A stretch of 64,000 nt of DNA from Tricholomella constricta (Eukaryota > Basidiomycota > Agaricomycetes > Agaricales > Lyophyllaceae): assembly GCA_013368375.1 (NCBI GenBank), contig JAACJP010000002.1, positions 1,426,001 to 1,490,000 on the forward strand, in the 5' to 3' direction. Positions 2,781-58,500 of this stretch are shown here, in pieces. The translations under genes and the position numbers were made by a program. The notes beneath the pieces were generated by a model. That model was not told the origin of the DNA. It ran no database searches and was given only the letters and a program-made list of their open reading frames with translations. The number at the start of each line of letters is the position of its first letter. The first letter of the stretch is position 1.

Positions 2781-2783
2781 TCA
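2778..2783 (-). promoter_or_regulatory. Candidate stop-codon readthrough site UGA CUA between gag-pro and pol
   Basis: Gag-pro ends with GYGQE and a UGA stop. The next codon is CUA, and pol continues without interruption in the same frame. UGA followed by CUA is an established leaky context, reported in alphaviruses, in animals and in the basidiomycete Ustilago maydis. Readthrough would give a Gag-Pro-Pol fusion at low frequency, the usual need of retroelements. The hexamer and frame are read directly; readthrough here is inferred. Confidence 0.7.
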
Positions 2784-5700
2784 TTCCTGACCATACCCTG
2801 CGTCGCTGCGCCTCAATGCGCTTCGTCGCGCCATTTCTCGGGTCTCCTCCTCGACCGTAAACGTCGGAGCAGGACTCCCGCTTATCCGAACACAGTTATG
2901 CCGGAAATCCAGTTCGATTTCCAGCTGCCTCATCAATGCGACGCCAATAATGGCGTCGTATTTATCCAAGTTTACTATATCAAAGTAAACTTGCGCGTCT
3001 ATCGCCTCATACTTCATTGGGACTGTCGTTCCGTAGTTGATCACTGATCGACTACCCTTCGTTCCCAACTGTAGCGGCACCACTTCCTCCAGTTGGTGCA
3101 CTTTCATTTTCGCCACTTTGGCAAATTCGGGGGACACGGCCTCCGCCGTGCATCCCGAGTCAAATAGGGTGAACGCTTTCAGCCCATTAATTTCTACCAA
3201 TGCCGTAAAGCATTGGCGCTCCTGCGCTTTGCGCGTTGGACGTTTAAGAAGTCGTGTAGACTTCTTAACCACAATGGGTCGGGTTCCCGTCCCCGTCCCA
3301 GCCGCTGTATTCGCCGCGAACATCTGTGCGGCCTCTCCCTCGTCTTCCGACTCACTATCGCTGACTTCCACTAATAGTGGAATTCCCTCCTCCCCCGAGT
3401 CATCCTCGAGGGTCCTCCCGAAGCACAGTCGTTCGACTGTGTCTCTGTCGTCGTCGGAACCGTACTCCTCGTACTGTTCCAACGCATAGTCCTCCCCTTC
3501 GGACTCATATTGCTCCCCCAGAAGAGGCGTCTCGCTCTCTTCTGGTTCTACGGGCGCTGTTGCTGCTGGTCGTTCGCCGCCGCATCGTACATCGTGGCTG
3601 CGTCCAGCCACTTCCGTGTCCGACGTATCGTCCACGATATCCCGCACCGCGTTCAGTCGCGCAGTGCTGCTCTTGTTCTTAGGGCACTTGCGGCTTCTCG
3701 CAAAATGCTCCAGGCTGCCGCAATCGAAGCAGGCTAGCCGCTTCTCGCCTGAGGGCTTCGTCCCTCCGTCTACGCCCTTCGCAGGCGTCGCTGGCGGTTT
3801 CTTACCGTCCGATTTCGGTTCTGACCGTTGTCCTCCCGGACCTGTCGGCTTGTAGGGTGGTCGGCTCCCACCCTCATACGTTCTCGTTGGAGCCCGCGCT
3901 ACAGCGGTATCCTTCTTTTCCGATGATTTTCGGGCTACTGCCTCATAATCATCGTATCCGCGAAGTACTCGGTTTGCCTGCTCAATTTTGAGCCCGGCTT
4001 CGAGTATGTCTCGCATTCGCGACGTCTCCGCCGTGAATCCCCTGTTCAAGATTTCCTTGCGCAGGTATCTTGGGATACCGGTCATAAACCGCCATTTGAA
4101 TGTATACGGGTCGGGTGGCATTACCATCCGTTCCGCATATCTCTTTAATTGATGGAAGAATTCATTTATTCCGCCATGTGCGCTATACACAGCGCGTTCG
4201 AACCCTACATAAGCATCCTGCAACGATGCTTCATGAATAAACCGGTCATATAATCCGGTAATGACGTCCTTGAACGTCCAGTCTCGACGTCGCCGGTGAA
4301 TACCGTCGACGTTGTCCGTAAACCATACAGCGGCGGCCCCCTTGAGGTACATCCCTGCGTACAAGATTCGCTCTCGCTCCCGGTCCTGTCCCCCAAGCTG
4401 GTTGATCTCCATCCAGCGGAGCACGCTATATAGCCATGTATCGAATTCTTCCATACTTGGCGCCCCGTTATATTCCTCGGGCATGGGCACTCGCAGTGCT
4501 CCAGGCCTCGCTCCTCCCTGTTGCATAGCTATAATGCTATCCAACTTTTCATCAATCGTTGCATGATATCGACCATGCACTTTCAGGAGATACTCTCCTT
4601 GGCGCTGCAGTCCGCTCGCCCCGAACGACCTTACCGGCCGTTGTGGAGTTACCAACTGCTGCTGGCCTCCTCCATAGTGTACCCCCGGAGTGCGACTCGG
4701 TAGTCGTATTCCCCCGTAGTACTGTGGGTTGTTCGGAGGATTACTCCGTCCATCCCAGCCGCCCGTTGGGTGGCTAGCGTGAGTCGGGCGTGGCGTCGTC
4801 GTTCCTCGCCCACCGGACCCGTATTCCGGTCTCACTGGTGCAAGCGGCGCATTAGTGTGCCCTCCTTCGAACTCGCTTTCCGAGTTCTCCTCGGCTTCCG
4901 AGTTGTCCTCCTCTCCACCGTATCCGCCTGGGTTTGCCGCCTCCAGTCGTGGTTCTGGAAGCGGCCTTGTGGTCGCAACACTGTTGCGTCCGCTACCTCT
5001 CACCGCCTCGGTGACCCGCCCACTAGGCAGTTCTGCGCAGTGCGTAACGATTTCGTCGTCGCACGAGGGCCCTCGTTTATATGACGTCGGGCCTTCTCCT
5101 GATAAATCCCAGGTCCGACTGTATGAAGTCGCTGCTGGTTCCGCCTTGGGTGGGTTCATCGCCCGTTCGTAGGCTGCGTGTCTCACGCGCGCCTGCGAGC
5201 TTGTCTCGTCTTGCTGGCGAGGCTGCCGCAAACTTTGGTTTACGGCTTCCATCGTATCTAACGATGGTAAGGCTACGTCCCGCTGGGTTACAACCTGGCG
5301 GTATGGTTCCTCGTGGTCCTGTTGTACGAGTGGTGATTCCACCTGCTCGAACACTTCATCATACTTCCTCAGCCCCTCTTCCACAAGAGAGCTGAGCTGT
5401 GCCCGGGAGGGAGTTACTCCCTTCCGGCTTCCTGATCTTAGTTGTAGAACGATGGATTCTACTACTATCTCCTGGTCTTTTCGGAGGGCCGATTGTCCCC
5501 CAGTCGCTTCGACGCATTTTTCAAACGCGTCGTTTACTAGGTTAACTAGCACATCTCGGGGAGGCATGATGCCGTCCCTGCTAAACATCCGTATGTTTAA
5601 TACTATGCTTTCCACTAATAAATCACGGTCATCCACCACAGATGACGAAGGCAGCGTTCCGCTGCTTTCTCGTTTCGCTGGTTTCTTCTCAGCCCGGCGA

Positions 5701-6070
5701 TTTCGTCGGGCTGCGGTCGACATCATCTTTGACGATCGCGATGCGGGCACATCAGTGAGTTCACTGGTGCCAAATATTGCTGGGTGACCATGTTCGTCAT
5801 CCCGCATCTTTACTGAGCTCCTCGATATATTATCGAAGGGCGCAGGAAACACGCCCTGGCGTTCCTGCGAGGTGCCCGATACGGGTTCCTCTTTGGGTTT
5901 CCGGTCGCTCCAACCGGGTCCCACCTGGGAGCCCCCTTCTCGGATACTGACGGGCCTTGTCAAAATTGCGCTCTGAGGTCGAGCGCTGCTGCGCTCGTCC
6001 TCTAGATGATAGTTTCTATCATCTGGGTGTGACTTTGCCACGTCACGCTTAGGCTCCACTCTGTCGCCGC
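2781..6070 (-). CDS. gag-pro: Element 1 gag-pro, main part (N-terminus displaced to 19125-19249)
   Basis: Structural Gag and aspartic protease of element 1. About 330 low-complexity Ser/Arg/Glu-rich residues are followed by the Gag core, which contains motifs such as EEFDTWLYSVLRWMEI and GAAAVWFTD (about 4290-4460). A zinc knuckle CFDCGSLEHFARSRKC follows near 3700; its spacing C-x2-C-x4-H-x6-C is longer than the usual x4. An acidic linker leads to the retropepsin-type protease with LFDSGCTAEAV near 3155 and a DAIIGVALMRQLEIELD region near 2930. The frame can be read upstream to about 6314, but that extension lies in the inserted LTR of element 2 and is an artefact of the insertion. The real N-terminus is at 19249. 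The gene is broken by the insertion but not otherwise decayed. Confidence 0.88.
6067..6070. repeat. Target-site duplication of element 2, left copy (CCGC)
   Basis: CCGC directly precedes the TG of the 5' LTR and recurs directly after the CA of the 3' LTR at 19125-19128. Keeping one copy restores the gag frame of element 1, which supports the assignment. Confidence 0.8.
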
Positions 6071-7107
6071 TGATGAGCACCGTCCCGCGCTGTACACAGA
6101 ACCTGCCCATAATAGACAGCAACCGCTGCGCCACGACGAACACGGTCCCGGATGCGACCAAAGCACCGAACCGACCGACCGACAATACGACCGACCGACC
6201 GACAATACGACCAAACGACCGACGCACCGACCAAGAAACAGAGTAACTTGAAACGCCAGTTCTCCTCTCTGGGCGCACGGAGCACGGAACGCCGTACAAC
6301 CTGTCAACGACCACGCACGTTTGTATGCCAAGGTCTCAACCCGGCGACAACCAAACCCGATTTGAAATTATCATCGGAAACACCTTTGCCCAGCCATTCG
6401 CAGAGAGGATCCGGCCGTACCACGGAGTTCCGCACCCAAGAGCCGCTACCGATCGCAAAGCCACCACCGATCATACATCCGACCCGACACCGCGAGCCGA
6501 TCAAAAGCCCCTTTGCCGAGCCAAAGAGCGCCACACTCTCTAAAAAGCGTCGCGCGGTACCAAGCTTGGCGGCGCTTCTCACCATAAACTAGTAAAAAAC
6601 ACCTGCCTCACCGGCTCGCGAGAGGCGAGTCGGTCGCATAGTATAAAAACATCCCCATGTACTACCTACCTCCCCCAGTGAATTACAGCCCGTATTTTCC
6701 CTCACACTCAGAGTGAATAGCTCAAAACCGTCGTCTCCGTCGTCTCTGCACCGTCCTCATCGTATAAACCGTCGCCACTGTCGTAAACCTCGTAACTGCC
6801 GTCTCTGTCGCCTCGTACTCGTCGCTAGAACCCGTGAGTTCTCCATATTAACTTTGTTCGTCTCGTTGTCGCACAACCGACACCAAGAAGTCGTGTTACC
6901 GACCCGTTCCGCCTGGGAACGATCGTATTCTGTCGTATCGCCGTCGGTTCGACTAACTACGAGTCGGATCGTCTTTACTTTAATCAAACCACCCCTTTCA
7001 AACCCTGCACACTTGCGTGTTTGGGAACTTTTAACATTTCTCGCCCCCCATAGTTGTTAGTTGTTTTGTTGTTGTGCACAGCACCTACAGGCCTCCTAGC
7101 TCTATCA
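6071..7107 (+). repeat. 5' LTR of element 2 (1,037 bp)
   Basis: TG...CA termini, and the same length and sequence as 18088-19124. It contains two tandem copies of CCGACCGACCGACAATACGA near 6173-6212 and a TATAAAA box at 6642-6648. Six-frame reading gives several short open stretches here, but none has coding features and they recur in both copies only because the DNA is duplicated. Confidence 0.95.
6642..6648 (+). promoter_or_regulatory. TATA box in the 5' LTR of element 2
   Basis: TATAAAA sits about 465 bp before the LTR end, in the context GCATAGTATAAAAACATCC. It is the best TATA match in the LTR and would place the start of the genomic transcript near 6670-6680. The same box occurs at 18659-18665 in the 3' LTR. 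Confidence 0.6.
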
Positions 7108-7592
7108 TTCTGGAGCCCACCGCGAGGGTTTTAAAAGCCACCGCCGGACACGCAACCTCATTCCTCTTGTTCATAAAAACCTACGACTCGTCGACCATTC
7201 CGCCCGCAACCCGACAAGAAGCTAAAGCCCGAACCCTCCGTGCCGAAATTCGCGCTGCTCTCGGACAAGCCGACACCGACTCAGAATCGCTCTCCCCGTT
7301 CTTCCGCTCAGTAACCCCACACCGCGCGATCCATAACAACCTCAGCCCGCTCTTCTATAGCCCTTCGTCGACACTACCGTCGCCTACCCCGACCGATCAA
7401 ACACCGCTCCCCGAACCAACCGCGCAACCCGACCTAGCTTTCGACCCCTTTGCGTCGGAACCTCCTACCACTGATCAAGGAGTTGAATTTAGACTCCCCT
7501 ATCTATCGCCCGCGACCCCGGAAATCTCAGATTCTTCTTCACCGTCGTATTCCCCCTCCCCGTCCCCTATCCCGAAGCCAATACCATCTATC
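7108..7592 (+). other. Element 2 leader: putative primer site and long open frame without ATG
   Basis: A putative primer-binding site, TGGAGCCCACCGCGAG, starts at 7111, three bases inside the LTR; the tRNA is not identified. The frame that becomes gag is already open from 7074, inside the LTR. It encodes about 173 Pro/Ser/Thr-rich residues before the first in-frame ATG at 7593. Either translation starts upstream at a non-AUG codon, or a spliced leader supplies a start, or the stretch is open by chance in GC-rich DNA. Confidence 0.55.
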
Positions 7593-9896
7593 ATGGCACA
7601 ACCACCAATCATTATAAAGCCGATGCCCGCACGCGGACAAAGCTCGGCACCGACGTTCGTGCCCGAACGTGCGCGTGAACTGCGCCGATATTTCTCGGAC
7701 TTAAATCATCTCTTCATCGAGTGTAACGTCGTAGATGAACAAGAGCAGAAAACGCACACTACACGATACACCGACATCGATACCGCGGATCTGTGGGAGC
7801 AACTTGACGAGTTCGCGGTCGGCACCACATACGACGATTGGCGAAAAGCGATAATGGCGCTTTACCCAGGCGCAAGCGAAGAAAGAAAGTATTCAATGGC
7901 CGACCTCGACTACCTGATCAGGGAACGACACCGACTCGGGATCCAGTCGAATAGCGACCTCGGGGAATATTACCGACAGTTCCTTTCTGTTACCCAGTTC
8001 CTTGTCAGCAAAAACCGACTTTCGATAAACGAACGCGACCGCCAATTCCGTCGCGCGTTCCAGTCAGATCTATGGTCAAAGATCCATCGCAGGCTCGAGA
8101 TCCTAAATCCGAACCACCATCCCGACGACCCCTACGCCACAGAAACCGTTCGCGCTGCAGCTGAACATATCCTCCACGGAACAAACGCCGGCCAACGACA
8201 GGAAGCGCCATCGGGCGCGCCCCCACAAATTACGATCGCGCCAAGCGGGTCGTTAACGGGCGCGACCAAGTCGCCTAACACGGGACAGCCCCTCAAGTTG
8301 GAAGAGCTTTACGAAAGAATAAACCTGTTGGAACAACATATCCAACGCTTAGGACAAGACAAAGGAAGCGACGGCGGCCGACCGAATCAGTCACCTAATG
8401 ACAACTGCCACTTCTGCGGTGGTGAAGGACATTATATTCCTAACTGTCCCATACATCAAACATACGCGACCGAAGGACGCTGCCGACGAACCGACGACAA
8501 CAAAATAGGTCTGCCAAGCGGCGCGCGCATACCGGCGGGAACCCCAGGTCGATACATAAAAGACAAGTTAGACGAGTGGCACAGACGCAACCCCGGCCAA
8601 ATGGCGACAGGACAGCTATCAGCGAACGCGAACCCGACCGAAAGCATGATGTTGGAAATACTACAGTTTAACGACGTCACCGACCATGACCTAAAAATCG
8701 AGGATCGCATGATCGTGTTAGAACGAGAACTCAACACCCTGCGTGCAAGGAAAGAGGTGTTCGACGGCGTAGAACTTATTAGCCGCGCACCGCAAAAGCG
8801 ACCCGTCACGGTCGAAACCGTTCAAGACGCCGACCAACCAAGGATCGCACCAGTCAACAACTCAGCGCCCGCGTCGCAGCCCGTCTCGGGCGCGACGAAA
8901 GGCCAAGCCAAGGCTCCCCCGCCACCGTCCAACATACCTCTGACCCCCAGTAGCAAGACCGACGCCACAGGCACTGCCCGCGACCAGACTCCAGTACACC
9001 CTTTTTCTAACATTCCTGAGAACCGATACATCCCTCCTACCACGCGAAACTTAGCCGCCACGGAGAAGGCGAAAGCCGACAGCGCGTATCGCACACAAGC
9101 GCCCATTACAGATCCGACCAAATCAACGACTCTATTCGAACGCGCACTCGACGCCACCATACCGGTCACAGTTCGAGAACTCTGCGGGGTAGCGCCAGAG
9201 GTTCGCGGAAAGTTTAGGGAAGCTAATACCCCGAAGCGCATCGTCGCCGGCAACCTCACAACGGTATACCAAGAAGTCCCCACGTCGGCGTTCATTGAGG
9301 AACTCGACGCACTACCTTGCGAATCCAACAGCGACAACGCGACGCCACCGCCCGGAGCGCTAGTCACCGGCGACATCTACGACACGTATTACCAGACACT
9401 ACTACCTGGCGAGCATCCGGACCGACTGATCGTCGCAATGGAATCGCATGCACTCAGATCGATCATGATAATGGTCGACGCAAGAGAACAGATAGAAAGC
9501 ATCGTCGACAGCGGGTGCCAGATCATAGCCATGTCGGAAGAAGTTTGCCATGGACTAGGGGTCAAATACGACCCAACTATAGTGCTACAGATGCAATCAG
9601 CGAACGGAACAACCGACCCGTAGCTCGGTCTAGCACGAAACGTACCTTGTACGATAGGAGAGGTCACGCTCTACCTCCAAATGCACGTCATTCGCAACCC
9701 CGCATACGATATACTCCTCGGCCGCCCGTTCGACGTACTTACTTGCTCTAACGTGAAAACGAGATCCGCCGACGATACAATCATAACCATCACCGACCCG
9801 AACACTCGAGAGGTCATCGCGATACCGACCTTCGCGCGCGGACAACGTCGCCGCCCCAAAACCGACGTAAATTTTCGTATACTCTCGAGGAAATAA
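7593..9896 (+). CDS. gag-pro: Element 2 gag-pro with an in-frame UAG in the protease
   Basis: The first in-frame ATG (7593) begins MAQPPIIIKPMPARG. Next comes the helical Gag capsid-like region (about residues 20-185) with WRKAIMALYPGASEE and FRRAFQSDLWSKIHRRLE. A zinc knuckle CHFCGGEGHYIPNC (C-x2-C-x4-H-x4-C) lies near 8407-8448. The C-terminal retropepsin has SIVDSGCQIIAMS near 9500 and the second half RNPAYDILLGRPFDVLT near 9691-9740. A TAG at 9621-9623 splits the protease between QSANGTTDP and LGLARNVP. The frame resumes immediately and runs to TAA at 9894-9896, so one base change accounts for the stop. Expected product if read through: a Gag-Pro of 767 residues. Gag alone would be unaffected except for a truncated protease. 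Confidence 0.88.
9869..9875 (+). promoter_or_regulatory. Candidate -1 ribosomal frameshift site A AAT TTT
   Basis: In the gag-pro frame the codons read GTA AAT TTT CGT, preceded by A in the right place to form the X XXY YYZ heptamer A AAU UUU. It lies 18 bases before the frame-0 stop at 9894. A shift of -1 enters the pol frame (TTT TCG TAT...), which stays open to 13639. No downstream pseudoknot was modelled. Confidence 0.7.
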
Positions 9897-12800
9897 GTCG
9901 AGATCACGGCGATCTTGCACTCCTCCTCGAGTACGACCCACTAAGCTATACCCCGACTGTCCTTTCTTTCTGCGAACTACCAACCGAATTTAATAGCGAC
10001 GCCACCTACGACGCGCAACTAGCCTCACTCTACGTCGCGGCATCCGAACTAACCACACCAGCAATCGCCGACAAATCCGTTAATACCAACTCTGCCCCTC
10101 TGGAACGAACGACCCTCTGCACTATTTTACCGAACAACGAGCGCCATAGTGGACGCCACACCCAATCCCTGACCAACGCCGCCACCGACGCCTTCGTTGT
10201 GAAAATCAAAGGCGTACAAACCAAAAAGAAGTACAAACCAGTAGCGCAAAAAGTGCGATCGATCATAGCAAGTTGTCCCGACCACTTCCGCATCGAGCGC
10301 AAAATATCGGGCGACCCTCTCGCCGACATGCCGACTCTGCTCCCCAACCCGCCACCTTTCCAACCCACCGGCCGCTACACTCTAGAGCGAAAAAACGACT
10401 TAGACCGTGAACACCCAGACTTCTTAACGCCCTCCGAACGAGCAATTATGCACGACCTCATGTGTAAGCAGAATCTCGCTTTCGCATGGGACGATTCCGA
10501 ACGCGGTAGTTTTCGATCGGATTTCTTTCCCCCTATCGATATCCCGGTCGTTGCACATACACCCTGGATCGAACGAAATATCCCCATACCGCCTGGCATC
10601 TACGATGAAGTTTGCGACATTATCAAAACTAAACTCGCCGCCGGCGTTTACGAACCGTCCAACTCCAGCTACCGATCGCGTTGGTTTTGCACTCTAAAGA
10701 AAAATGGCAAATTCCGCCTCGTCCACAGCCTCGAACCGCTCAACCGAGTAACCATCCGACACTCGGGTGTCACTCCGATACCAGACCATGTCGCTGAACA
10801 ATTCGCCGGTCGCATTTGTGGCGCAATGTTAGACCTGTTTGTCGGCTACGACGAACGGCTAATCGCACCGTCGTCGCGCGACCTTACCACTTTCCAAACA
10901 CCTTTCGGCGCGTTACGCCTAGTCACCTTACCTATGGGCTGGACCAACTCCGTCCCAATCTTCCACGACGACGTCACTCACATCCTGCAACCGGAGATCC
11001 CGGACTATACACTGCCTTATATCGACGACGCTGCTATAAAGGGACCAGCAACTTGGTACCCCGACCCGGACACAGGATTGCCGAAAACACACCCCGACAA
11101 TGCCGACGTGCGATTCGCGATCTGGGAGTTTTTCAACAACGTTAACCGAATCCTCCAGCGCATGAAGTACTGCGGCGGCACCTTCTCCGGCAAGAAGCTG
11201 ACTTTATGCGCCCCACAATTTAAAGTCCTCGGACACGTCTGCACGCCCAATGGTCGCATACCCGACGCGGACCGACTCGCTTTACTACGTAATTGGAAGT
11301 CGTGCGCCACCCTATCAGAGTTACGCGCGTTTTTAGGAACGGTCGGAGTACTAAGGATATTCGTCAAAAACTTTGCTCATCGCGCACACCACCTCGTAAA
11401 ACTAACCCGCAAGGATGCAGTCTTCGAGTTCGGCCCCGACCAGATCGCAGCGCAGCGCGACATCGTCGAGGCGATCGCAGAAGCGAAACCCCTCGTGCCC
11501 ATCGACTACGCCTCGGACGACCCCGTCATCCTGGCCGTCGACACTTCCCACATAGCAGTCGGATTCTACCTCTGTCAAGCCGACCCCGTCGATCGGAAAC
11601 GACGCAGATACAATCGGTTCGGTTCCATTACACTGAACGACCGCGAATCACGGTTCTCTCAACCAAAACTCGAATTTTACGGCCTATTTCGGGCGCTTGG
11701 CGCGTTACGACTGTACGTTATAGGCGTCCGCAACTTGGTCGTCGAAGTCGACGCGCGCTACATTAAAGGAATGCTCTCCAACCCCGACATCCAGCCGTCA
11801 GCTTCCATAAACAGGTGGATCGTATCTGTCCTCATGTTCCACTTCGAACTTGTCCATGTTAAAGGCACGTTCCATGGACCCGACGGTTTGTCCCGGCGCC
11901 CACGACAACCCGACGATCCAGCCGACAACTACGACGCAGAAGAAGCCGACTTCGAAGATTGGGTCGACCGGATGCAAGGACTCATGCACATTATTCAACC
12001 GCTGCCACAGCCGCCGTCGCCATTACATGTGTGCCAGATCTTCGCTATGGCTCAGGTCTCAAGTAAAGAGGAGATGGTGGCAGTATACACGGACGCGGTA
12101 CCACCAGACTCAACGACTCACGAACTCGCAACCGATTCCCCACAACAACCCAGAATCCGTACCGACGACGATACAGGAATAACCGACCCAAATGCGAATT
12201 CGACCGACATGTCATACGACGACGTGCCCAGGACCGACGCCGCTAAAGCCCAAGACCAACGCATAGATACGGTTAGACAATGGTTAACCAACCTCGAACG
12301 GCCAGAAGGCATGTCCGACGATCAGTACGCCACCTTCATCCGATACGCCACCGGGTTCTTCCTAGACGGAACACGACTCTGGAGAAGAGATAGCCAAGGC
12401 GCACATAAACTAGTCGCCCGCCCCAACGCACGACTAGAGATTCTGCGATCCGTCCACGACAACCTCGGACACAAGCGCTTCTACGCGACACGCGCAACCT
12501 TGCTCGAACGCTTCTGGTGGCCTAATGTTCGGGCCGACGTCGTGTGGTTCGTACAGACATGTCACATATGCCAGATCCAGCAAACGACCAAAGTCCTGAT
12601 CCCCCCGGTCGTTGCGACACCCGCGCCACTGTTTGCAAAAATGTACATCGACACTATGCACCTACCGCCGTCGAATGGTTTCAAATACATTGTCCAAGGT
12701 CGTTGCTCCTTGATTCACTTTCCCGAATGGCGCGCGCTACGAAAAGAAAACAGTCGCACCCTCGGCGATTGGATGTATGAAGACATCATCTGCCGGTGGG

Positions 12801-13639
12801 GCGGACTGCGCGAAATCGTAACCGACAACGGTCCGGCCTTCATCAAAGCCGCTGAACACCTCACAAAGAAATACCACATACACAACATTCGGATCTCAGG
12901 TTATAACTCCAGAGCCAACGGACTCGTCGAGCGGTCCCATTTCGACGTTCGACAGTCCCTTTTCAAAGCCGCCGACGGAAACGAAAGCAAATGGTCGCAA
13001 TCAGCTTATACGGTTTTCTGGGCCGAACGGGTCACAATCCGCAAACGAATGGGATGCTCCCCCTACTACGCCGCGACAGGTACTCAACCCCTTCTGCCGC
13101 TCGATATCGTTGAAGCCACGTACCTCCAACCGCCACCCGACTCTATCCTATCCTCCACCGACCTCTTGACGCGACGCGCGATCGCCTTACAAAAACGGAC
13201 GACCGACCTAGAGCGACTACATTCAGACGTATACGCGGCGCGAAGACAAGCGGCGATTCGCTTTGAACTTAAACACGCCAGAACCTTGCGCGACTATAAC
13301 TTTAAACGCGGAAACCTCATCCTAATGCGCAACACGAAAATCGAGAAGTCGCTCAACCGCAAAATGCGATCTAGATACCTAGGACCGCTCGTCGTGATCT
13401 CGCGCAACCGCGGGGGCGCCTACATCCTCTGCGAACTGGACGGCACCGTCTTACACCGGCCTGTAGCAGCGTTCAGACTCGCGCCCTACTTCGCGCGAAA
13501 CAACATCCTCCTACCCGACAGCGCTCTGGACATAGACACCAAGCGACTTAGAGAACTGGAAGCAACAACAATCACCGACGACGAAGACCGACCTGAAGTC
13601 GTAGACGACGACTCCGAATCGGAAAACGAGCAAAACTAG
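9872..13639 (+). CDS. pol: Element 2 pol: reverse transcriptase, RNase H and integrase
   Basis: Open in the -1 frame relative to gag-pro from the slippery site to TAG at 13637-13639, about 1,255 residues. RT: GRICGAMLDLFVGYDERL carries the first catalytic Asp and YIDD at 11018-11029 the Asp pair. RNase H: VILAVDTSHIAVGFYLCQ, ITLNDRESRFSQPKLEFYGL and VVEVDARYIKGML. Integrase: zinc motif H-x-H...CHICQ near 12450-12580, then catalytic D (YIDTMHLP, about 12645), D (VTDNGPAF, about 12820) and E (NGLVERSHF, about 12920). All catalytic residues are present and no stop interrupts pol. It has no ATG near the start, so expression should depend on the frameshift. It produces the cDNA and inserts it into the genome. 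Confidence 0.93.
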   Translation, partial: FSYTLEEISRDHGDLALLLEYDPLSYTPTVLSFCELPTEFNSDATYDAQLASLYVAASELTTPAIADKSVNTNSAPLERTTLCTILPNNERHSGRHTQSLTNAATDAFVVKIKGVQTKKKYKPVAQKVRSIIASCPDHFRIERKISGDPLADMPTLLPNPPPFQPTGRYTLERKNDLDREHPDFLTPSERAIMHDLMCKQNLAFAWDDSERGSFRSDFFPPIDIPVVAHTPWIERNIPIPPGIYDEVCDIIKTKLAAGVYEPSNSSYRSRWFCTLKKNGKFRLVHSLEPLNRVTIRHSGVTPIPDHVAEQFAGRICGAMLDLFVGYDERLIAPSSRDLTTFQTPFGALRLVTLPMGWTNSVPIFHDDVTHILQPEIPDYTLPYIDDAAIKGPATWYPDPDTGLPKTHPDNADVRFAIWEFFNNVNRILQRMKYCGGTFSGKKLTLCAPQFKVLGHVCTPNGRIPDADRLALLRNWKSCATLSELRAFLGTVGVLRIFVKNFAHRAHHLVKLTRKDAVFEFGPDQIAAQRDIVEAIAEAKPLVPIDYASDDPVILAVDTSHIAVGFYLCQADPVDRKRRRYNRFGSITLNDRESRFSQPKLEFYGLFRALGALRLYVIGVRNLVVEVDARYIKGMLSNPDIQPSASINRWIVSVLMFHFELVHVKGTFHGPDGLSRRPRQPDDPADNYDAEEADFEDWVDRMQGLMHIIQPLPQPPSPLHVCQIFAMAQVSSKEEMVAVYTDAVPPDSTTHELATDSPQQPRIRTDDDTGITDPNANSTDMSYDDVPRTDAAKAQDQRIDTVRQWLTNLERPEGMSDDQYATFIRYATGFFLDGTRLWRRDSQGAHKLVARPNARLEILRSVHDNLGHKRFYATRATLLERFWWPNVRADVVWFVQTCHICQIQQTTKVLIPPVVATPAPLFAKMYIDTMHLPPSNGFKYIVQGRCSLIHFPEWRALRKENSRTLGDWMYEDIICRWGGLREIVTDNGPAFIKAAEHLTKKYHIHNIRISGYNSRANGLVERSHFDVRQSLFKAADGNESKWSQSAYTVFWAERVTIRKRMGCSPYYAATGTQPLLPLDIVEATYLQPPPDSILSSTDLLTRRAIALQKRTTDLERLHSDVYAARRQAAIRFELKHARTLRDYNFKRGNLILMRNTKIEKSLNRKMRSRYLGPLVVISRNRGGAYILCELDGTVLHRPVAAFRLAPYFARNNILLPDSALDIDTKRLRELEATTITDDEDRPEVVDDDSESENEQN

Positions 13640-14108
13640 CCGCTCAACCTCTGACTACCCGTATACCCCCCCCTTTTTTTTTAATGATATTTCGACATCT
13701 ATCCCTCTCCGGTTTCTACTTAAACGTCCCACGACCCGACCATTCGCGAAGTCCAACACCCCGAGCGACAGTTTTTCCATTCGTTCTTTTAACCCCCACT
13801 CAATTTTCAGGATCACACACTTAATACCTGACTTCGCAGGAAAACAGCACGGCGTATATTACATTTTAGCCCATTTTACGGGCTCCGACAAGTCCAAATA
13901 CAGAACAGAAAAACGCGACGCCTCTAGCGGAGGAACGACGCGGCCACAACACCAAGAAAAAACGCGACGCCTCTAGCGGAGGAACGACGCGGCCACAACA
14001 CCAAGAAAAACCGACCCAACAACCACCGACACCATGCGACGCTTCTAGCGGAGGAACGACGCGACCACGACCCCAAGACAAACGACGCGACGCCACCGCC
14101 GACTACCT
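13640..14108 (+). other. Spacer between pol and accessory genes of element 2
   Basis: Contains a C8-T9 run at 13666-13682 (A9G8 on the minus strand) 26 bp after the pol stop, and three GC-rich tandem repeats at 13909-14077. No coding sequence was recognised. For the minus-strand accessory gene A this is the 3' flank. Confidence 0.6.
13909..14077. repeat. Three tandem repeats with a palindromic core in element 2
   Basis: A 48-49-bp unit is repeated twice almost exactly, then a third time after a 23-bp insertion. Each contains GCSTCTAGCGGAGGAACGACGC; the CCTC-TAGCG-GAGG part is a small inverted repeat that survives in units 1 and 2. It lies 32 bp beyond the stop of accessory gene A. Confidence 0.85.
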
Positions 14109-16222
14109 CTACTCCTCCACCAAGTCACCTTCCACCTCCTCTTCGTCGCCCTCTTCGCCAGTTTCCACCGCTTCTTCCTCCGACGCCGCGCAGCTGTCGC
14201 TTTCCGAAAACTCGACACCGTCCGCTCGCATTAACTGAGAACGTCGCCTGCGGAGCGCAGTGATCGCGTTTGCTGTACCAGCGAATTGTTCGCGCACTCG
14301 GATAAGGCTCCAACGGGCGATCTCCTGCCGCGATTCCCAAAGGTGCAGCTCCTGAATTAGCGAACGCAACATGGCGTTGCGCGACGTTAGAGCCCGGTCG
14401 ACGTCCCCCAGGGGAAGCGAGGCGACACGCGACAAATCGGTGGCGTAGCCTAAGCCATCCAAATCACGGTTGCGTGGAAGACTGGTTCCTCGGGGTACAC
14501 GACCACCGTGGACGGCGCTGGCGCCCATGCCCGACCCCTCAACGGTGTATTGAGCTTCCTGCAGAGCCCCTACAGTCGGCCCCCAGTCTTCGTCACTGAA
14601 CGCAGTAAGGGCGCGCGCCCGGCGACGCGAGACGGAAGGCGACACGGTCTCCACGTCCTCCTCGGAGTCCTCCACGACGGGCTTGGAGGCGACGCGACGA
14701 CGACTCCGCGGACGCGCGTTCTTGACAACTGCCGCGTCGGACTTGTACTTCACGGTTTCGCACCGCTTGGAGAAGATTTTGCACCGCGCACAGATCCCGC
14801 CCTCAGGTTTCTGAAAGCAGTCAACGGCGGCGTCGGCACAGCGATCACACTACAGCGTCGTCAGAATGCGACCGACCCGACAGAACACACAGCGACTTAC
14901 CGGCTCGTCACGGATGAAGTGGTTCGGGTGGGCGACTTTGAACTCCTCTAGCCGCTCCAACCACTTAAACTCGGCGGCGGCCTTCTTCGCTGCCGTGGCC
15001 TGCTCCCGCTTCTTGGCCGCCGTGGCCCCCTTCTTGCCAGTCGCCTTCCCCGCCTTGACCGCCCCCGGCACCTTCTCTGTCTTGGGTACCACCTCCACAA
15101 CCTCAGGCGCGGACCCCTCGCCTTCGTCGTCGACAGCGCGCTTCCGCTTGCGGCTAGATGACGCTGGTACCGTGTCGATGAGGACGATGGGTGGTCCACC
15201 TACCGAAGGTGTCAGAGGGAGCCCGTCGATCGGACTAAAAATGACGGGTGAAGCAAACGCGAACTCACCAGCGGCACCCGTTTTCGGACGTCCACCTCCG
15301 GCCGACATGTGGGGTAACGTCACCGGGCGATATGCAGGGTCGCGCACGCTCAACACCTTGGCCCTAGCTTTAACCTTCCCCTTTGGAGGAGCGGAAGCGA
15401 CGGGCGACGCGGGGGGTGCCCGATCGAGCATAACGACGTCGGACGCCGGAGGTGAGCGCGACAGGAGGGGGGGTCGCATCGGCTCCAGGGCTTCCCGCCC
15501 CATCCGCTCCGCCATCGCCATAACTCTCGCCGCTTCCGCTTCCCGCACGACACCCGCTACAGTGTGGGTATCGCTACCAGCCGGGCCGGCGATACCACGG
15601 GGTGGCGCACCCGACTCCGGATGAAGGGGCGCGTCGTCGACTGTCGCGGACACTGGGAGGACACTTTCAGTTCCCACAGGAACCCCTGCTACCGTAGCAG
15701 CCGAACTCGGTGCAGCCGCAGTCGTAGCGGTAGTTTCGGCATCGGTCGTGGGCAGACGCGGGTCGGTTGGTAGGGCCGCCACAGCCGTTAACGCTGGCAG
15801 GTCCTCGGGCGCCACCGACTGGGCGGCGCGTATGTTGGCCGCCGCACCCAAGCGAGCACGACGGGTGCGACGACGGCGCGCGTTTTCACTCTAGGAAGGC
15901 TGGATAAGCAGCCCACCCACGGACCAGTCAAAACAACTAAACCGCGACGCACCTCAGGTTCTAACCCACCAAACGGCCCCCTCCACTCAGCATCCCCCCC
16001 TACGACAGCCCAGACCGCACGCAACGCGGATTCCTCCTCAGGCCATACCCAACGCGGTTCCTCGCCCCCCTGGGCACGTAATGCCGACACTCCCTCCAGC
16101 AACCCCTCGAGAATGGCGAGACGTGCTTCACGCGACGCATCGGCAGACAGCGCCCGCCAGTCGTCCCAGTCGCCCTGAAGGTCCTCGAGGATGAGTGCAT
16201 AGTTGGGTGGCAGGTCAGCCAT
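14109..16222 (-). CDS. Accessory gene A of element 2: C6 zinc-cluster protein, antisense to gag-pol
   Basis: Three exons, both introns in phase 0: 16222-15953 (270 nt), 15890-14901 (990 nt), 14849-14109 (741 nt); predicted 666 residues. Introns of 62 and 51 nt have GTGCGT/TAG and GTAAGT/TAG ends. Exon 1 encodes MADLPPNYALILEDL and a Trp/Glu-rich helical block. Exon 2 is long, low-complexity and Ala/Pro/Lys-rich, with a possible nuclear signal SSSRKRKRAVDDE, and ends in WLERLEEFKVAHPNHFIRDEP. Exon 3 opens exactly at C-x2-C-x6-C-x8-C-x2-C-x6-C (14849-14760), the spacing of the fungal Zn(II)2Cys6 cluster. A conserved block DVDRALTSRNAMLRSLIQE and an acidic tail follow. Its function is unknown; DNA or RNA binding is inferred only from the cluster. 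The minus-strand introns would not be spliced from the plus-strand genomic RNA, so they can persist through retrotransposition. Confidence 0.75.
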
Positions 16223-16628
16223 GCCTGAAGACGGTGTGGGAGGGAAAAAGAGGGAGCCGAGAAAGACAGAGGGTCCTTGGGAAACTTGACGCGAGGTCAA
16301 ATTCTGTTGCACCGCCACCGCCATCTCACGCCACACACGCGTCAGTTCTAGAATTCTCTCGACCGGTCTCCGGACCGACTGAGGACAGTCGGCATTTCAA
16401 GTAAGGCGGAGACGAACTACAGATGAAACGACAGCCGATACTAGCAACCGACACCGCCAACCACAAAACCGACCGACACAACGAACCGACCTGCGCCACT
16501 TAAAACACGAAAAAATTCGAGCTATAAAGAACAACCCAATTTGAAGGCCCGAACCATAAAATAGGTATATACGGGATACGCGACCGGTAACAAACGTGAC
16601 CCGACCGCAACACACGACAAAACCAAAG
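16223..16628. other. Interval between accessory genes A and B
   Basis: This is the 5' flank of gene A and the 3' flank of gene B. It holds the diverged hairpin/polypurine copy (16373-16411) and an AT-rich stretch with TATATA near 16565 on either strand, which might drive gene A. No coding sequence is recognised. Confidence 0.5.
16373..16411 (+). repeat. Hairpin plus polypurine segment, internal copy
   Basis: The stem CCGACTG-AGGA-CAGTCGG (16375-16392) is followed by ATTTCAAGTAA and the purine run GGCGGAGA. The same arrangement at 18050-18087 stands directly before the 3' LTR. Here no LTR follows, so it appears to be a relic of an earlier 3' end left by duplication of the accessory unit. Confidence 0.8.
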
Positions 16629-17925
16629 TCAAGGCGACGAACCCTCGCCACGATCGTCGCGTACGCCACAGTCGACATCGCTCCCACTACCGTTGCCCCC
16701 ACTCCTCGAATTAACCATCGCAGACGCACCAACTAACTCGGCGCGCCGGGCCTGAAGCAAGTCAAGGGCCGACGACGTAGACACGACCTGCTCGTAAAGC
16801 TGACGGGACGACGAACGCATGATCTCTTGGCGCGATTCAAGGACTTGAATTTCCTGGACCAAAGTGCGCAAGAAAACGGTGCGCGCCGATAGCGCCCGAT
16901 CTACATCTGCAAGACCAAACCGCGAAATAACCGACAACGGCTGAGTGAAGCCCAAACCGCGCAAATCTTCGTTACGAAGGAAGTCCTCAGGGCGGAACAC
17001 CGGGCTCTGATAAAGGGGACCCGCACCCCGGTCTACTGAACTTGCCGAACGAGTTACGACAAGGCGCGGAGCGGCCCTTGCCAGATCGGGCGAACGGACC
17101 TCGTCGAACAGCGGAGGGGGCATACACGCGTCGCAAGAGTGGCCCTCTACTGAACACGACACGAACTGGTGCGGAGCTGGCCGAAACGACCCCACTTCGT
17201 TCGTCTCGCACCGTCTAGATTGAATCTCGCAAACCGCGCAAACCTCAATGTCGCTGCGCTGAATGCAGCCCAAGCCGTAGCTCACACAACGATCGCACTA
17301 GCCAATAGATGAACGAAAGAGTAAGGACGCAAGAAGACCGACGACTTACCGCTTCGCTACGAGTGTAATGCTCAGGGTACTCCTCCTTAAATTCCTCGAG
17401 ACGTGCCAGCCACAAGCGGTGTCGCATCCCTTGTGCCGCCAATACCGACTCCCCGGAGAGCTCGACGACAGACTCTTCTTGGTCCCCGTCTCCAACAGAG
17501 GAAGCGCACGAACGCTCCCGAACGACAGACCCTGCCTTTTCTTCAGCGAAGGTGGCGCGCGTACGGACGACCGTCTCTCGGCGAGGGTAATCGGACTACC
17601 AACTAGCGCGTTAGTACTCTGCAGAAACGACCAAATAACCAGCAAGCGAACGCACACTCGGTTCTAGATCCGCGAACCGCTCGGACCATTCGGGGTCGGA
17701 CTCGATCGTAGACCATATGTTAGATAATGCCTCTTCCTCGTCGCCCCACATCCAACGCCAGGGACTAGCCACCGGCGACCTAAGCACTTCGAGGCTGTTC
17801 GACAAGTATTGTAGCACACGGGTGCGCGCGTAACGAGGGGAGTCGGCCGACAGCGATTGCCATTCGTCCCAGTCTCGTTCCAAGAAGCGGAGAGTGCGCT
17901 GAAGATCGACAGGAGGTCTCGACAT
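16629..17925 (-). CDS. Accessory gene B of element 2: diverged second copy of gene A
   Basis: Three exons, again with phase-0 introns: 17925-17656 (270 nt, the same length as in gene A), 17595-17350 (246 nt), 17297-16629 (669 nt); predicted 394 residues. Intron 1 has a textbook branch site TACTAAC. Exon 1 begins MSRPPVDLQRTLRFLERDWDEW, matching gene A in register (DWDDWRALSADA versus DWDEWQSLSADS). Exon 2 is only 82 codons against 330 in A, but ends with the matching block WLARLEEFKEEYPEHYTRSEA. Exon 3 opens at a C6 cluster with identical spacing (17297-17208), followed by a second Cys/His group (SCSVEGHSCDAC) and the shared block DVDRALSARTVFLRTLVQE. A TATATATATA stretch lies about 25-40 bp upstream of the ATG. 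The two copies are far diverged at protein level, yet both stay open and splice-competent. Confidence 0.75.
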
Positions 17926-18087
17926 AACGATGGGTAAACCAATCAAGAACCCGAGTATATATATAGGTCGCCAGCGCGCCGGCACCGCCACTTCCTCCTA
18001 CCCCTGCCCCTCTTTTCCAAGACGAACGCCCCCTGACCGATGCACGGGACCGACTGAGGACAGTCGGTATTTCAAGTAAAGAGGAGA
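17926..18087 (+). other. 3' end of element 2 internal region: gene B promoter, hairpin and polypurine tract
   Basis: Contains a TATATATATA run near 17953-17963, suited to minus-strand transcription of gene B, the hairpin CCGACTG-AGGA-CAGTCGG at 18050-18067, and the polypurine tract AAGTAAAGAGGAGA at 18074-18087 that abuts the 3' LTR and should prime plus-strand DNA synthesis. Confidence 0.75.
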
Positions 18088-19124
18088 TGATGAGCACCGT
18101 CCCGCGCTGTACACAGAACCTGCCCATAATAGACAGCAACCGCTGCGCCACGACGAACACGGTCCCGGATGCGACCAAAGCACCGAACCGACCGACCGAC
18201 AATACGACCGACCGACCGACAATACGACCAAACGACCGACGCACCGACCAAGAAACAGAGTAACTTGAAACGCCAGTTCTCCTCTCTGGGCGCACGGAGC
18301 ACGGAACGCCGTACAACCTGTCAACGACCACGCACGTTTGTATGCCAAGGTCTCAACCCGGCGACAACCAAACCCGATTTGAAATTATCATCGGAAACAC
18401 CTTTGCCCAGCCATTCGCAGAGAGGATCCGGCCGTACCACGGAGTTCCGCACCCAAGAGCCGCTACCGATCGCAAAGCCACCACCGATCATACATCCGAC
18501 CCGACACCGCGAGCCGATCAAAAGCCCCTTTGCCGAGCCAAAGAGCGCCACACTCTCTAAAAAGCGTCGCGCGGTACCAAGCTTGGCGGCGCTTCTCACC
18601 ATAAACTAGTAAAAAACACCTGCCTCACCGGCTCGCGAGAGGCGAGTCGGTCGCATAGTATAAAAACATCCCCATGTACTACCTACCTCCCCCAGTGAAT
18701 TACAGCCCGTATTTTCCCTCACACTCAGAGTGAATAGCTCAAAACCGTCGTCTCCGTCGTCTCTGCACCGTCCTCATCGTATAAACCGTCGCCACTGTCG
18801 TAAACCTCGTAACTGCCGTCTCTGTCGCCTCGTACTCGTCGCTAGAACCCGTGAGTTCTCCATATTAACTTTGTTCGTCTCGTTGTCGCACAACCGACAC
18901 CAAGAAGTCGTGTTACCGACCCGTTCCGCCTGGGAACGATCGTATTCTGTCGTATCGCCGTCGGTTCGACTAACTACGAGTCGGATCGTCTTTACTTTAA
19001 TCAAACCACCCCTTTCAAACCCTGCACACTTGCGTGTTTGGGAACTTTTAACATTTCTCGCCCCCCATAGTTGTTAGTTGTTTTGTTGTTGTGCACAGCA
19101 CCTACAGGCCTCCTAGCTCTATCA
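18088..19124 (+). repeat. 3' LTR of element 2 (1,037 bp)
   Basis: Begins TGATGAGCACC right after the polypurine tract and ends CTATCA before the target duplication. Same length as the 5' LTR, with no difference seen in the stretches compared. Confidence 0.95.
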
Positions 19125-55552: not shown

Positions 55553-58500
55553 ATGTCTACCACTGTTTCTGCCATTCAAGAGAGTCCGACGCTGGAGAGT
55601 CTATTGCCTCGTAGGTATCAGGAAGAAGTGTTTTCGAGAGCTCAAAAAGGTGACTCTCATTTGTGCCCCGGCAGCTTTTTGCCAAATCTTCTGATCGAGG
55701 CAACTAGGCAACGTTATCGCTGCGCTGAACACGGGATCGGGAAAGACTTTGATCAGTCTGTTACTCATTCGATGGATATCCGCCCTGGAGACATCGAAGG
55801 GAAAAGTGATCATATTCTTGGTCCCCAAAGTTGCGCTGGTTGAACAGCAGGGAAACTTCATCGCACAAAACACCCCACTTCGAGTGATCAAACTACACGG
55901 TGCTTTGGAGATTGATTTGACTGATAGACCTCGATGGAATAAAAAATTCACGCAACATGACGTATTCGTCATGACTGGTAATATCAACCCTATTCCTCCA
56001 TTGTGGCCGTTCTTATACCTGCTTTAGCCCAGATATTTCTAAACCTTTTGACCCATTCCCTCTGGAGCATCGACAAGGTTTCTCTCATGATTTTCGATGA
56101 GTGTCACCATGCTCGGAAGAACCATCCATACAATGGCATAATGCGAGAATATTTTCGAGTAACCGTCGTGACCCGCCGACCCAAGGTCTTTGGAATGACT
56201 GCCTCCCCGATATGGAATCCCAAAGACACGATAGGCTCGTTGACAACTCTCGAAGCAAACATGGATTCAAAAGTCATTGGTGTACGTGCCAATGTCGAAG
56301 AATTGAATAAATACTCTCCCAAACCCATTGAAGTAAGCCTCATCTCGAATCAGTCTCGGGGTTTTCGCTAATATCTGTTTAGGTCATCAGAGAGTACCCT
56401 TTCCCTCCAGAAGAATACGGTGACTACCCCTCCCCATCGCTATGGAATTGCCTCGAAGTCTTTGAAAAAGACATCTGGGCTGAGCTTGAAGTACCATGGG
56501 CTAGTGTGAAAATGCGCTACTACTCAACATTATACAACCTGGGCCCGTACGCTGCGTCGCTTTTCTTGCATGACGAACTGGAGCAACACGTCTCTCGGAT
56601 ACATGACAGTTACCTGGAAAATTTGCAGGCTGTAAACTACAGTGCCGAAATGGACGTACCGTCTCATGTCAAGCTCAAATCTCTTCCACCTGATTTTTGG
56701 CAAATTCAACAGATTCACGCTGATTTCGGGAATTTTTTTACCCCCTTATCGCCCTCTAACAATTGCCCCATTCCCGTGCCGTTAACGTGGTGTACACCCA
56801 AGGTCCACACTCTTGTGGACGTTCTGCTCAAGTATTATACCCCAGACTTTCAAGGAATCGTATTCGTGGAACAACGGCAGACCGCAGCGTGTTTAGCAAG
56901 GATATTACCTGTGGTAGTAGAGCTCAAAGGACTCATCCGCTGTGGGTCACTAATGGGGCAGGGTGTCAATGGTGATGGAATAGCAAAACCTACGCCCGCT
57001 GGTCACAAGGCTTCAGTGGATTCGTTTCGCAGGGGCGACATCAACCTTCGTAATGTCATTTTCCTTATTCTCCCCAGTTTTCCTTTCTAATTTAACATTG
57101 TCAGTGATCGCAACTTCAGTTGCTGAGGAAGGCCTTGATTTTCCGGTAAGATCCGCCCATCCATGGTCATGGAATAGATCACGCAATACGTTCTTGCATA
57201 GGCTTGTGATCTTGTTATACGCTTCGACCCCCTCGCGCACATGGTCGGATACGTTCAATCTCGTGGACGAGCCAGGAACAAATCGTCGACTTTTGTCATC
57301 ATGATTCAGAAGGATGATGTCTCTCACTTGAACCGGTATAATGCCCTTAGGACAGTGGAGCCAGAGGTCAACAAGGTTTTCCAAACTCGCCACGAAGCCA
57401 GCGACGGTCTCACTCAGGAAGATCATGATGATGAGGAAGTCAGTCCGGCTGATCTTGCAGAACGCGAGCGATTCGTCGTGGAATCGTCCGGTGCTGTCTT
57501 AACCTATGACAACGCAATTCAACTCCTTCATCGTCTCTGTTCCCTGATCCCCCGCGATCCATTCACACCGCCACACGTTCCAAAGTTTTCAGGTGACTTC
57601 CTGGTCACGCTTACTCTTCCATCGAGCATTCCTTTGCCTGAAGAACATTTGATGTTCACTGGACCACCTCGACGCTCAAAGAAGGAAGCCAAACGTGCAG
57701 CAGCTTTCATGGCTGTGAAACGATTGCACGAACTTGATGTTTACGACGAGTATCTTCTGCCGATCGCGCGCTCTAAATCGCATGAGACTGAGGATATCGA
57801 CGGACGGCCCCTTACCGACGTGTCCCAGGTACCAACTATGATGAACGTGTTGGTCAAGGATCCTTGGCTGACTGGACCGAGCCTGTGGCTTCACCTTGTC
57901 TATCTTAACAACCACGCAATAGCTGCTCTTATAACTGGTACTATCCTCCCTCCTGTCGATGTCTTCTGTGGCACAGCTTTGGTGCATACGCGACCTGGAG
58001 AGCCAATGATATTCGACGACGACGAAGATGAATGGCGGAAGCGAAAACTCATGCTCGAGTTCACTGGGCATGGAATATGGTTCCGCATCACTGCGCGACC
58101 ATTCACGCTTCCTCCAAGCGTCTTCCTCGTCCCCGTAACTCAGTACCACCAACCCGACTTCGAAGCCATGGAACGTCTCGTCACGAAGCCCCGCGGATGT
58201 TCCGATTGGAGCAATGTCACCGAAAATGACCTTGACAACCTCATGATCATGAATACCAATGAATTCGGTCGCCCTTTGTTACTACGAAATATTCGCCATG
58301 ACTTAACCCCTCTATCAGCGCCACCGCCTGGATCTCGCGAGCATGGTGCCGAAACATATTACCAGTATTTCATGAAAAGATGGACACGGAAAAAAAGGCA
58401 GGCGCGCGTTCCTACGGATGGACCCTTGGTGGAAGCAGCCATACTTCCTCGCTCTTTCGACGGGATGTACACATTGAACTCGGAGGGAGTCAGCTCCGCC

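Follow-up and report, generated by a model that had tools for sequence, protein, structure and literature searches.

The window analyzed here is the whole 64,000-nucleotide stretch of Tricholomella constricta contig JAACJP010000002.1, and a Ty3/gypsy element occupies its positions 6071–19124. About 4.4 kb between the pol gene of this element and its 3' long terminal repeat (LTR) house two paralogous genes on the minus strand, referred to below as gene 1 and gene 2. Gene 1 encodes 666 amino acids in three exons, with introns of 62 and 51 nucleotides (nt), and gene 2 encodes 394 amino acids, also in three exons, with introns of 60 and 52 nt. Every intron of the pair is in phase 0 and has GT..AG ends, exon 1 measures 270 nt in both genes, and the codon for the first cysteine of a six-cysteine (Cys6) cluster stands in each directly after the end of intron 2. 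The original prediction had described two antisense three-exon genes with a 270-nt first exon, phase-0 introns and the same cysteine cluster, and our models reproduce it exactly in exons, phases and splice sites. The exons are as follows.

15953..16222, minus strand: gene 1 exon 1, a 90-residue domain
14901..15890, minus strand: gene 1 exon 2, a linker with a KRKR stretch and a WLERLEEF motif
14109..14849, minus strand: gene 1 exon 3, with the Cys6 cluster, a coiled-coil-like part and an acidic tail
17656..17925, minus strand: gene 2 exon 1, a predicted 90-residue helical domain (the structure model was made for the gene 2 domain)
17350..17595, minus strand: gene 2 exon 2, from the gene model
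16629..17297, minus strand: gene 2 exon 3, with the Cys6 cluster and a predicted long helix

Retention of the two genes across a gypsy family

Matches to exon 1 in the 44-Mb genome to which the window belongs group into at least 83 loci (counted from 149 of 150 rows, one split piece being dropped). Among the matches listed, 66 of the 83 loci show a tandem pair of exon 1 matches and the other 17 a single match. In 69 of the 83, again among the matches listed, a gypsy pol has the expected position and orientation, at a distance of 1.8–2.3 kb in 67 of those; the same-strand control gave 5. The pol pairing used the first 96 of 106 pol rows, with 122 of 636 pol candidates scored, and its counts are lower bounds. 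Several of the 14 loci without pol sit near contig ends. Sequence-level analysis covered the window and 24 further stretches (L009–L032; 20 of 10 kb and four shorter), and the remaining loci were followed through match tables. In most of the retrieved loci pol and an LTR flank the accessory genes; the L029 stretch ends before the LTR, and no pol was found in the retrieved stretch of L017. The element and genes described originally are therefore real, and homologues do lie behind a gypsy pol in this genome, but what had been presented as a single element is a family, in which gene 1 can have four exons.

An open two-intron structure for gene 2 was obtained in 22 of the 24 places tried, the failures being L016, where exon 1 alone was found, and L029, which belongs to a different subfamily. 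All 22 models have a 270-nt exon 1, and 20 have GTAAGT as the second donor; exon 2 lengths are multiples of three, with copies differing by multiples of three only, and intron 2 is 52, 53, 57 or 63 nt long. Gene 2 of L015 and L011b needs another donor, which in L015 is coupled to a frameshift in exon 2, and in L025 the C-terminus is changed. The counts should not be taken as independent, since the model caller admits open models only and several copies are near-identical. For gene 1 we distinguish lineage A, the three-exon type of the window, from lineages B and C, in which undamaged copies have four exons, all in phase 0, with an exon 1 of 267 nt in C. Of the 21 gene 1 copies modeled, 15 have the expected open structure and the other 6 (L009, L013, L015, L017, L023 and L030) are damaged; gene 1 of L011b, which is cut by the end of its stretch, was left out.

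Purifying selection acts on both genes as components of the element. By the Nei–Gojobori (NG86) method, the median ratio of nonsynonymous to synonymous divergence (dN/dS) among pairs with dS >0.05 is 0.22 for gene 1 of lineage A (39 pairs, 11 sequences), 0.27 for gene 1 of lineage B (26 pairs, 8 sequences) and 0.34 for gene 2 (216 pairs, 22 sequences), values for which the pairs are non-independent and damaged gene 1 copies are included. Selection on both genes, which had been suspected from the two copies in the window, is thus borne out between copies of the family. In the same elements, dN/dS for pol is near 0.04 (e.g. dN 0.013 with dS 0.35), and therefore the accessory genes are constrained, yet evolve faster than pol.

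These observations bear on two alternatives. The first, that the genes were captured from the host or are passengers in decay, could appeal to the 6 damaged copies among the 21 gene 1 models, but it is most improbable in view of the number of loci, the tandem matches and pol context given above and the purifying selection. It also has to contend with gene 2 exon 3, for which 52 of the best 54 rows contain one TAG as the sole stop inside the match; judged by its position, this TAG is probably the intron's own end. A one-off, decaying capture, the contrary outcome named in the original prediction, is excluded for this genome by the number of loci, their pol context and the purifying selection. 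According to the second alternative, which we regard as very unlikely, it is the antisense RNA rather than the protein that matters, pairing with the genomic RNA and feeding or escaping RNA silencing. The antisense mRNAs would span ~4 kb of the sense RNA, and the window has a host open reading frame (ORF) with Dicer domains; the dN/dS values of 0.22–0.34, conserved splice sites and invariant cysteines, however, indicate selection at the protein level.

No protein homologues were found outside this genome at E ≤0.01, whether the query was gene 2 alone or a five-sequence profile. The same protein database yielded 1207 pol relatives at E ≤1e-20, the nearest 69% identical; the three with organism names among the 120 listed come from Mycena chlorophos and Agrocybe chaxingu, with 57–62% identity. 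A search of viral contigs found no pol match. The search for accessory homologues depends on shared five-residue words, and the accessory exons diverge fast compared with pol (between L029 and the window, pol is 88% identical and the accessory exons 33–56% where alignable), so the missing outside homologues are weak evidence of absence.

An upstream block shared by gene 1 and gene 2

The two genes share an upstream block. In both cases, the palindrome CCGACTGAGGACAGTCGG, which has the form CCG-N12-CGG, is followed by a polypurine tract (PPT) or a tract resembling it, and for gene 2 this tract is the very PPT that abuts the 3' LTR. A second motif, GCACCGCCAC, accompanies each palindrome. The parts of the block in the window, with the palindromes located by motif searches, are listed here.

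16375..16392, no strand assigned: palindrome CCGACTGAGGACAGTCGG in the gene 1 upstream region
16309..16318, no strand assigned: motif GCACCGCCAC of gene 1, 66 nt from the palindrome
16397..16412, plus strand: PPT-like copy behind the gene 1 palindrome, with 2 mismatches to the PPT
18050..18067, no strand assigned: palindrome CCGACTGAGGACAGTCGG in the gene 2 upstream region, adjoining the PPT
17982..17991, no strand assigned: motif GCACCGCCAC of gene 2, 68 nt from the palindrome
17956..17965, minus strand: TATA-like TATATATATA upstream of the gene 2 ATG
18072..18087, plus strand: PPT, immediately abutting the 3' LTR

No TATA-like motif was found upstream of gene 1. Allowing ≤2 mismatches, the palindrome occurs at 153 places genome-wide, against 0 for the reversed-pattern control. 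Among the 100 of these matches listed, 95 sit 94–427 nt upstream of an antisense exon 1, mostly at 121–173 nt; counted from the exons, 94 of the 149 exon 1 matches have a palindrome among these 100. In the loci read, GCACCGCCAC (≤1 mismatch) lies 45–72 nt from 49 of 52 palindromes, compared with a background of 0.027 per 200 nt, the exceptions being the palindromes at gene 1 in L013 and in L014 and a single one in L016. Palindrome and GCACCGCCAC as a compound pattern give 79 exact matches, against a control of 0. Distant loci keep both parts with a few changes in surroundings that are mostly unlike, and gene 2 of L011b starts without a palindrome. The copy of the PPT that lies inside pol was without a palindrome in all eight elements examined, and the palindrome therefore belongs with the gene starts. 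The sequence and position of the block suggest that it is the promoter of antisense transcripts.

In L013 and L014, both of lineage C, the longer region upstream of gene 1 contains an additional, diverged palindrome-like copy, CTGAGGACAGTCAG.

Exchange of gene 1 and the anatomy of the element

Gene 1 has been exchanged between elements. In 19 cross-lineage pairs (lineages A, B and C) with undamaged gene 1, dS for gene 1 is 1.7–3.1 and dN 0.58–0.67, whereas dS in the same pairs is 0.23–0.50 for pol and 0.08–0.32 for gene 2. Damaged gene 1 copies were included in the first version of this comparison, which gave the same picture when repeated with undamaged copies alone. The discordance extends into the lineages: between the two halves of lineage B, L018 on one side and L020 and L021 on the other, dS is 0.39–0.47 for pol, 0.18–0.21 for gene 2 and 1.2–1.3 for gene 1, and between the window and L009, both of lineage A (L009 being damaged), the values are 0.05, 0.12 and 0.65, respectively. 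When L020 and L021 are compared with each other, gene 1 (0.39) is in step with pol (0.45) and it is gene 2 that deviates (0.09). A difference in rate is an unlikely cause of the gene 1 divergence, because the divergence affects synonymous sites. The similarity of the window to lineages B and C ends at 13637–13668 (or 13962), that is, at the end of pol, and returns at 16243–16298 (or 16364), just upstream of gene 1, which gives the limits of the exchanged segment.

13640..16300, no strand assigned: swapped cassette, by the limits of similarity to lineages B and C

Approximately unbiased (AU) tests on eight elements, damaged gene 1 copies included, rejected the tree of each region for the other two regions (p ≤0.001). 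Exon 1 of gene 1 in the distant element L032 shows 68% identity to lineage C, compared with 37% to L029 of its own subfamily. Recombination between element lineages would account for the discordance, most simply through template switching among co-packaged RNAs.

One explanation of the exchange, improbable in our estimate, makes gene 1 a factor for copy control or superinfection exclusion, whose ancient, swapped alleles set which elements interfere. The deep gene 1 divergence in the 19 undamaged pairs, the AU rejection of common trees and the nearness of the L032 exon to lineage C all agree with it. The same pattern would nevertheless arise from host-driven diversification or chance template switching, and no lineage-specific operators were seen, the palindrome being identical across gene 1 lineages and lying outside the swapped stretch.

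The remaining parts of the element in the window are given below.

6071..7107, plus strand: 5' LTR, 1037 nt, 100% match to 18088–19124, with TGATGAG...CTATCA ends
7593..9623, plus strand: gag ORF, counted from the ATG chosen here, terminating at a TAG within the protease motif
9752..13639, plus strand: pol ORF, stop-to-stop limits
18088..19124, plus strand: 3' LTR, 1037 nt, matching the 5' LTR without difference

The LTRs, described from the outset as looking identical, agree at 1037 of 1037 nt, and CCGC is present at both external flanks. The gag product has zinc-knuckle and protease matches, all under the Pfam cut-offs; its TAG, at 9621–9623, is followed by 90 further open codons in the same frame and may reflect recoding or a broken copy. 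In pol, Pfam recognizes the integrase zinc-binding and RNase H domains, and the integrase core at E 0.15 only, while the reverse transcriptase was recognized by eye alone (YIDD). A second copy of the PPT, identical at 16 of 16 positions, lies inside pol at 12059–12074, near the middle of the element, and was found with ≤1 mismatch in 8 of 8 elements checked, one distant element included; lentiviruses have a comparable central PPT. Near the start of each LTR (6170–6223 and 18187–18240) there is a 20-nt tandem array of ACCGACCGACCGACAATACG, possibly regulatory repeats, and just behind gene 1 (13909–14010) a 49-nt tandem repeat is present twice, with a CCTCTAGCGGAGG hairpin and a third, diverged copy discernible by eye. 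A long minus-strand ORF at 2781–6314 overlaps the first part of the 5' LTR and by eye has zinc-knuckle and protease-like motifs of a gypsy gag-like kind. At 57241–59826, a host ORF has two RNase III stretches and a Dicer dimerization domain, and the host therefore has an RNA silencing gene.

The Cys6 cluster, a possible regulatory pair and known systems

The cluster of both genes has the spacing C-x2-C-x6-C-x8-C-x2-C-x6-C, and the pattern for Zn2Cys6 domains is C-x2-C-x6-C-x5-12-C-x2-C-x6-8-C. All six cysteines are invariant, and in Zn2Cys6 spacing, in each of the 22 exon 3 sequences selected for alignment; the cluster is the most conserved part of gene 1 in five of six pairs and joint top in the sixth. 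Neither cluster nor spacing was found in gene 2 of the distant loci L029, L031 and L032. Pfam family PF00172 matches 2 of the 22 exon 3 sequences, with a best E of 0.034 that falls short of the curated cut-off, and gives no match for the full window proteins at E ≤1. In the structure model of gene 2 exon 3, a short helix forms at each CxxC and a further helix extends over 70 residues, with a mean predicted local distance difference test (pLDDT) score of 61 for the model, about 65 in the cluster region and mostly >80 in the long helix. The top two Foldseek matches to the model are the Gal4 and Leu3 DNA-binding domains, and such chains make up 4 of the 12 matches, all with E 2.0 to 10 and none significant. 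All four gene 1 proteins inspected have KRKR runs and an acidic tail. The 'C6 cluster' label is correct by cysteine spacing, and together these results hint faintly at a true Zn2Cys6 domain.

With moderate confidence, we propose that the products of gene 1 and gene 2 are Zn2Cys6-like nuclear regulators encoded by the element and that they form an autoregulated pair. They would be produced from the antisense strand, each from a promoter of its own in which the palindrome is followed by GCACCGCCAC and then the start. The proteins may pair through their C-terminal coiled coil, and the Zn2Cys6-like cluster, presumably holding zinc, would contact DNA, with the CCG-N12-CGG palindrome as a candidate site and likely target. 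In this way, the pair would govern its own expression and, through the palindrome beside the 3' LTR, perhaps also the transcription or chromatin state of the element. The introns would persist because the element replicates via its sense RNA, in which antisense splice sites go unread.

The protein features could be read differently. The proteins might act post-transcriptionally, carrying or tethering the replication complex during nuclear entry or in the choice of integration site, with the cysteine cluster making contact with target DNA or protein. Retention of the genes with pol in 69 of the 83 loci among the matches listed accords with such a role, and the cluster, basic runs and long helix are also compatible with it. 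We nonetheless judge it unlikely, as it leaves unexplained both the upstream block at the two gene starts and the swapping of gene 1 among elements whose pol is similar. An extension of the regulatory pair, which we put forward tentatively and by analogy with phage immunity or regulatory modules, is a two-part antisense circuit: its variable half, gene 1, would pass from element to element as a cassette subject to diversifying pressure, with pol, gene 2 and the promoter block shared by all. In one subfamily gene 2 would then have lost its DNA-binding cluster and might assist or oppose gene 1.

Among known systems, Gal4/Leu3-type Zn2Cys6 proteins resemble the products of these genes in cysteine spacing, in the order of cluster, linker and long helix, and in having a CGG-type palindrome nearby. 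They differ in that the cluster here is under the Pfam cut-off, has little basic charge between cysteines 2 and 3 and is borne by a retrotransposon. HBZ of human T-cell leukemia virus type 1 is likewise an antisense, spliced gene, expressed from the 3' LTR side and encoding a nuclear regulator. It is a single bZIP gene with an LTR promoter, whereas there are two genes here and the window proteins have no bZIP family match at E ≤1.

Antisense extra ORFs were already thought to occur in plant and some fungal elements, and the literature agrees (PMC11963269, PMC7264820, PMC8365987). Plant Ty3/gypsy elements carry antisense additional ORFs (aORF-3R), among them TRP28 of Retand and gene23 of Grande, together with those of RIRE2 and PvRetro13; these lie between pol and the 3' LTR in most copies, are suspected to encode DNA-binding or nuclear regulators and, in the case of Grande gene23, have their own upstream promoter (PMC11963269, PMC7264820). 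The former paper is a survey of plant Retand elements; the latter, a review, lists Grande, RIRE2, PvRetro13 and the fungal Boty and likens their genes to retroviral accessory genes. Both name retroviral antisense genes as an analogy and call the function of antisense extra genes in LTR retrotransposons unknown. Gene 1 and gene 2 share with aORF-3R the place between pol and the 3' LTR and the antisense orientation to gag-pol in most copies. They differ from them, as described in these sources, in being fungal, in forming two paralogous, intron-containing genes with a Cys6 cluster and a shared palindrome block, and in the swapping of gene 1. With the Retand protein in particular, there is no likeness: Transposase_28 (PF04195, TRP28) has no match in the window proteins at E ≤1 or in the 22 exon 3 sequences at E ≤10. 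Another parallel is Boty/BcGypsy1 of Botrytis, a fungal gypsy element that likewise has an extra gene, brtn, in antisense orientation (cited in PMC8365987). Boty is an ascomycete element for which one gene is named in the text available, and the comparison is by description rather than by sequence or splicing.

Gypsy elements with extra antisense genes are thus a kind already known, as Retand, Grande and Boty show. Among open-licence PMC papers we found no description of a duplicated, spliced Cys6 pair combined with a shared block and gene 1 exchange. What this family adds is spliced antisense genes under measured selection, family-wide in one 44-Mb genome, and a repeated two-part upstream signature nearly confined to the starts of gene 1 and gene 2. 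The modular swap of gene 1 can, moreover, be measured against the pol of its own element. A 'function unknown' can hence be turned into direct questions, namely whether the protein binds the palindrome and whether the type of gene 1 decides which elements interact, and the case shows how introns may survive in an element that is copied through RNA.

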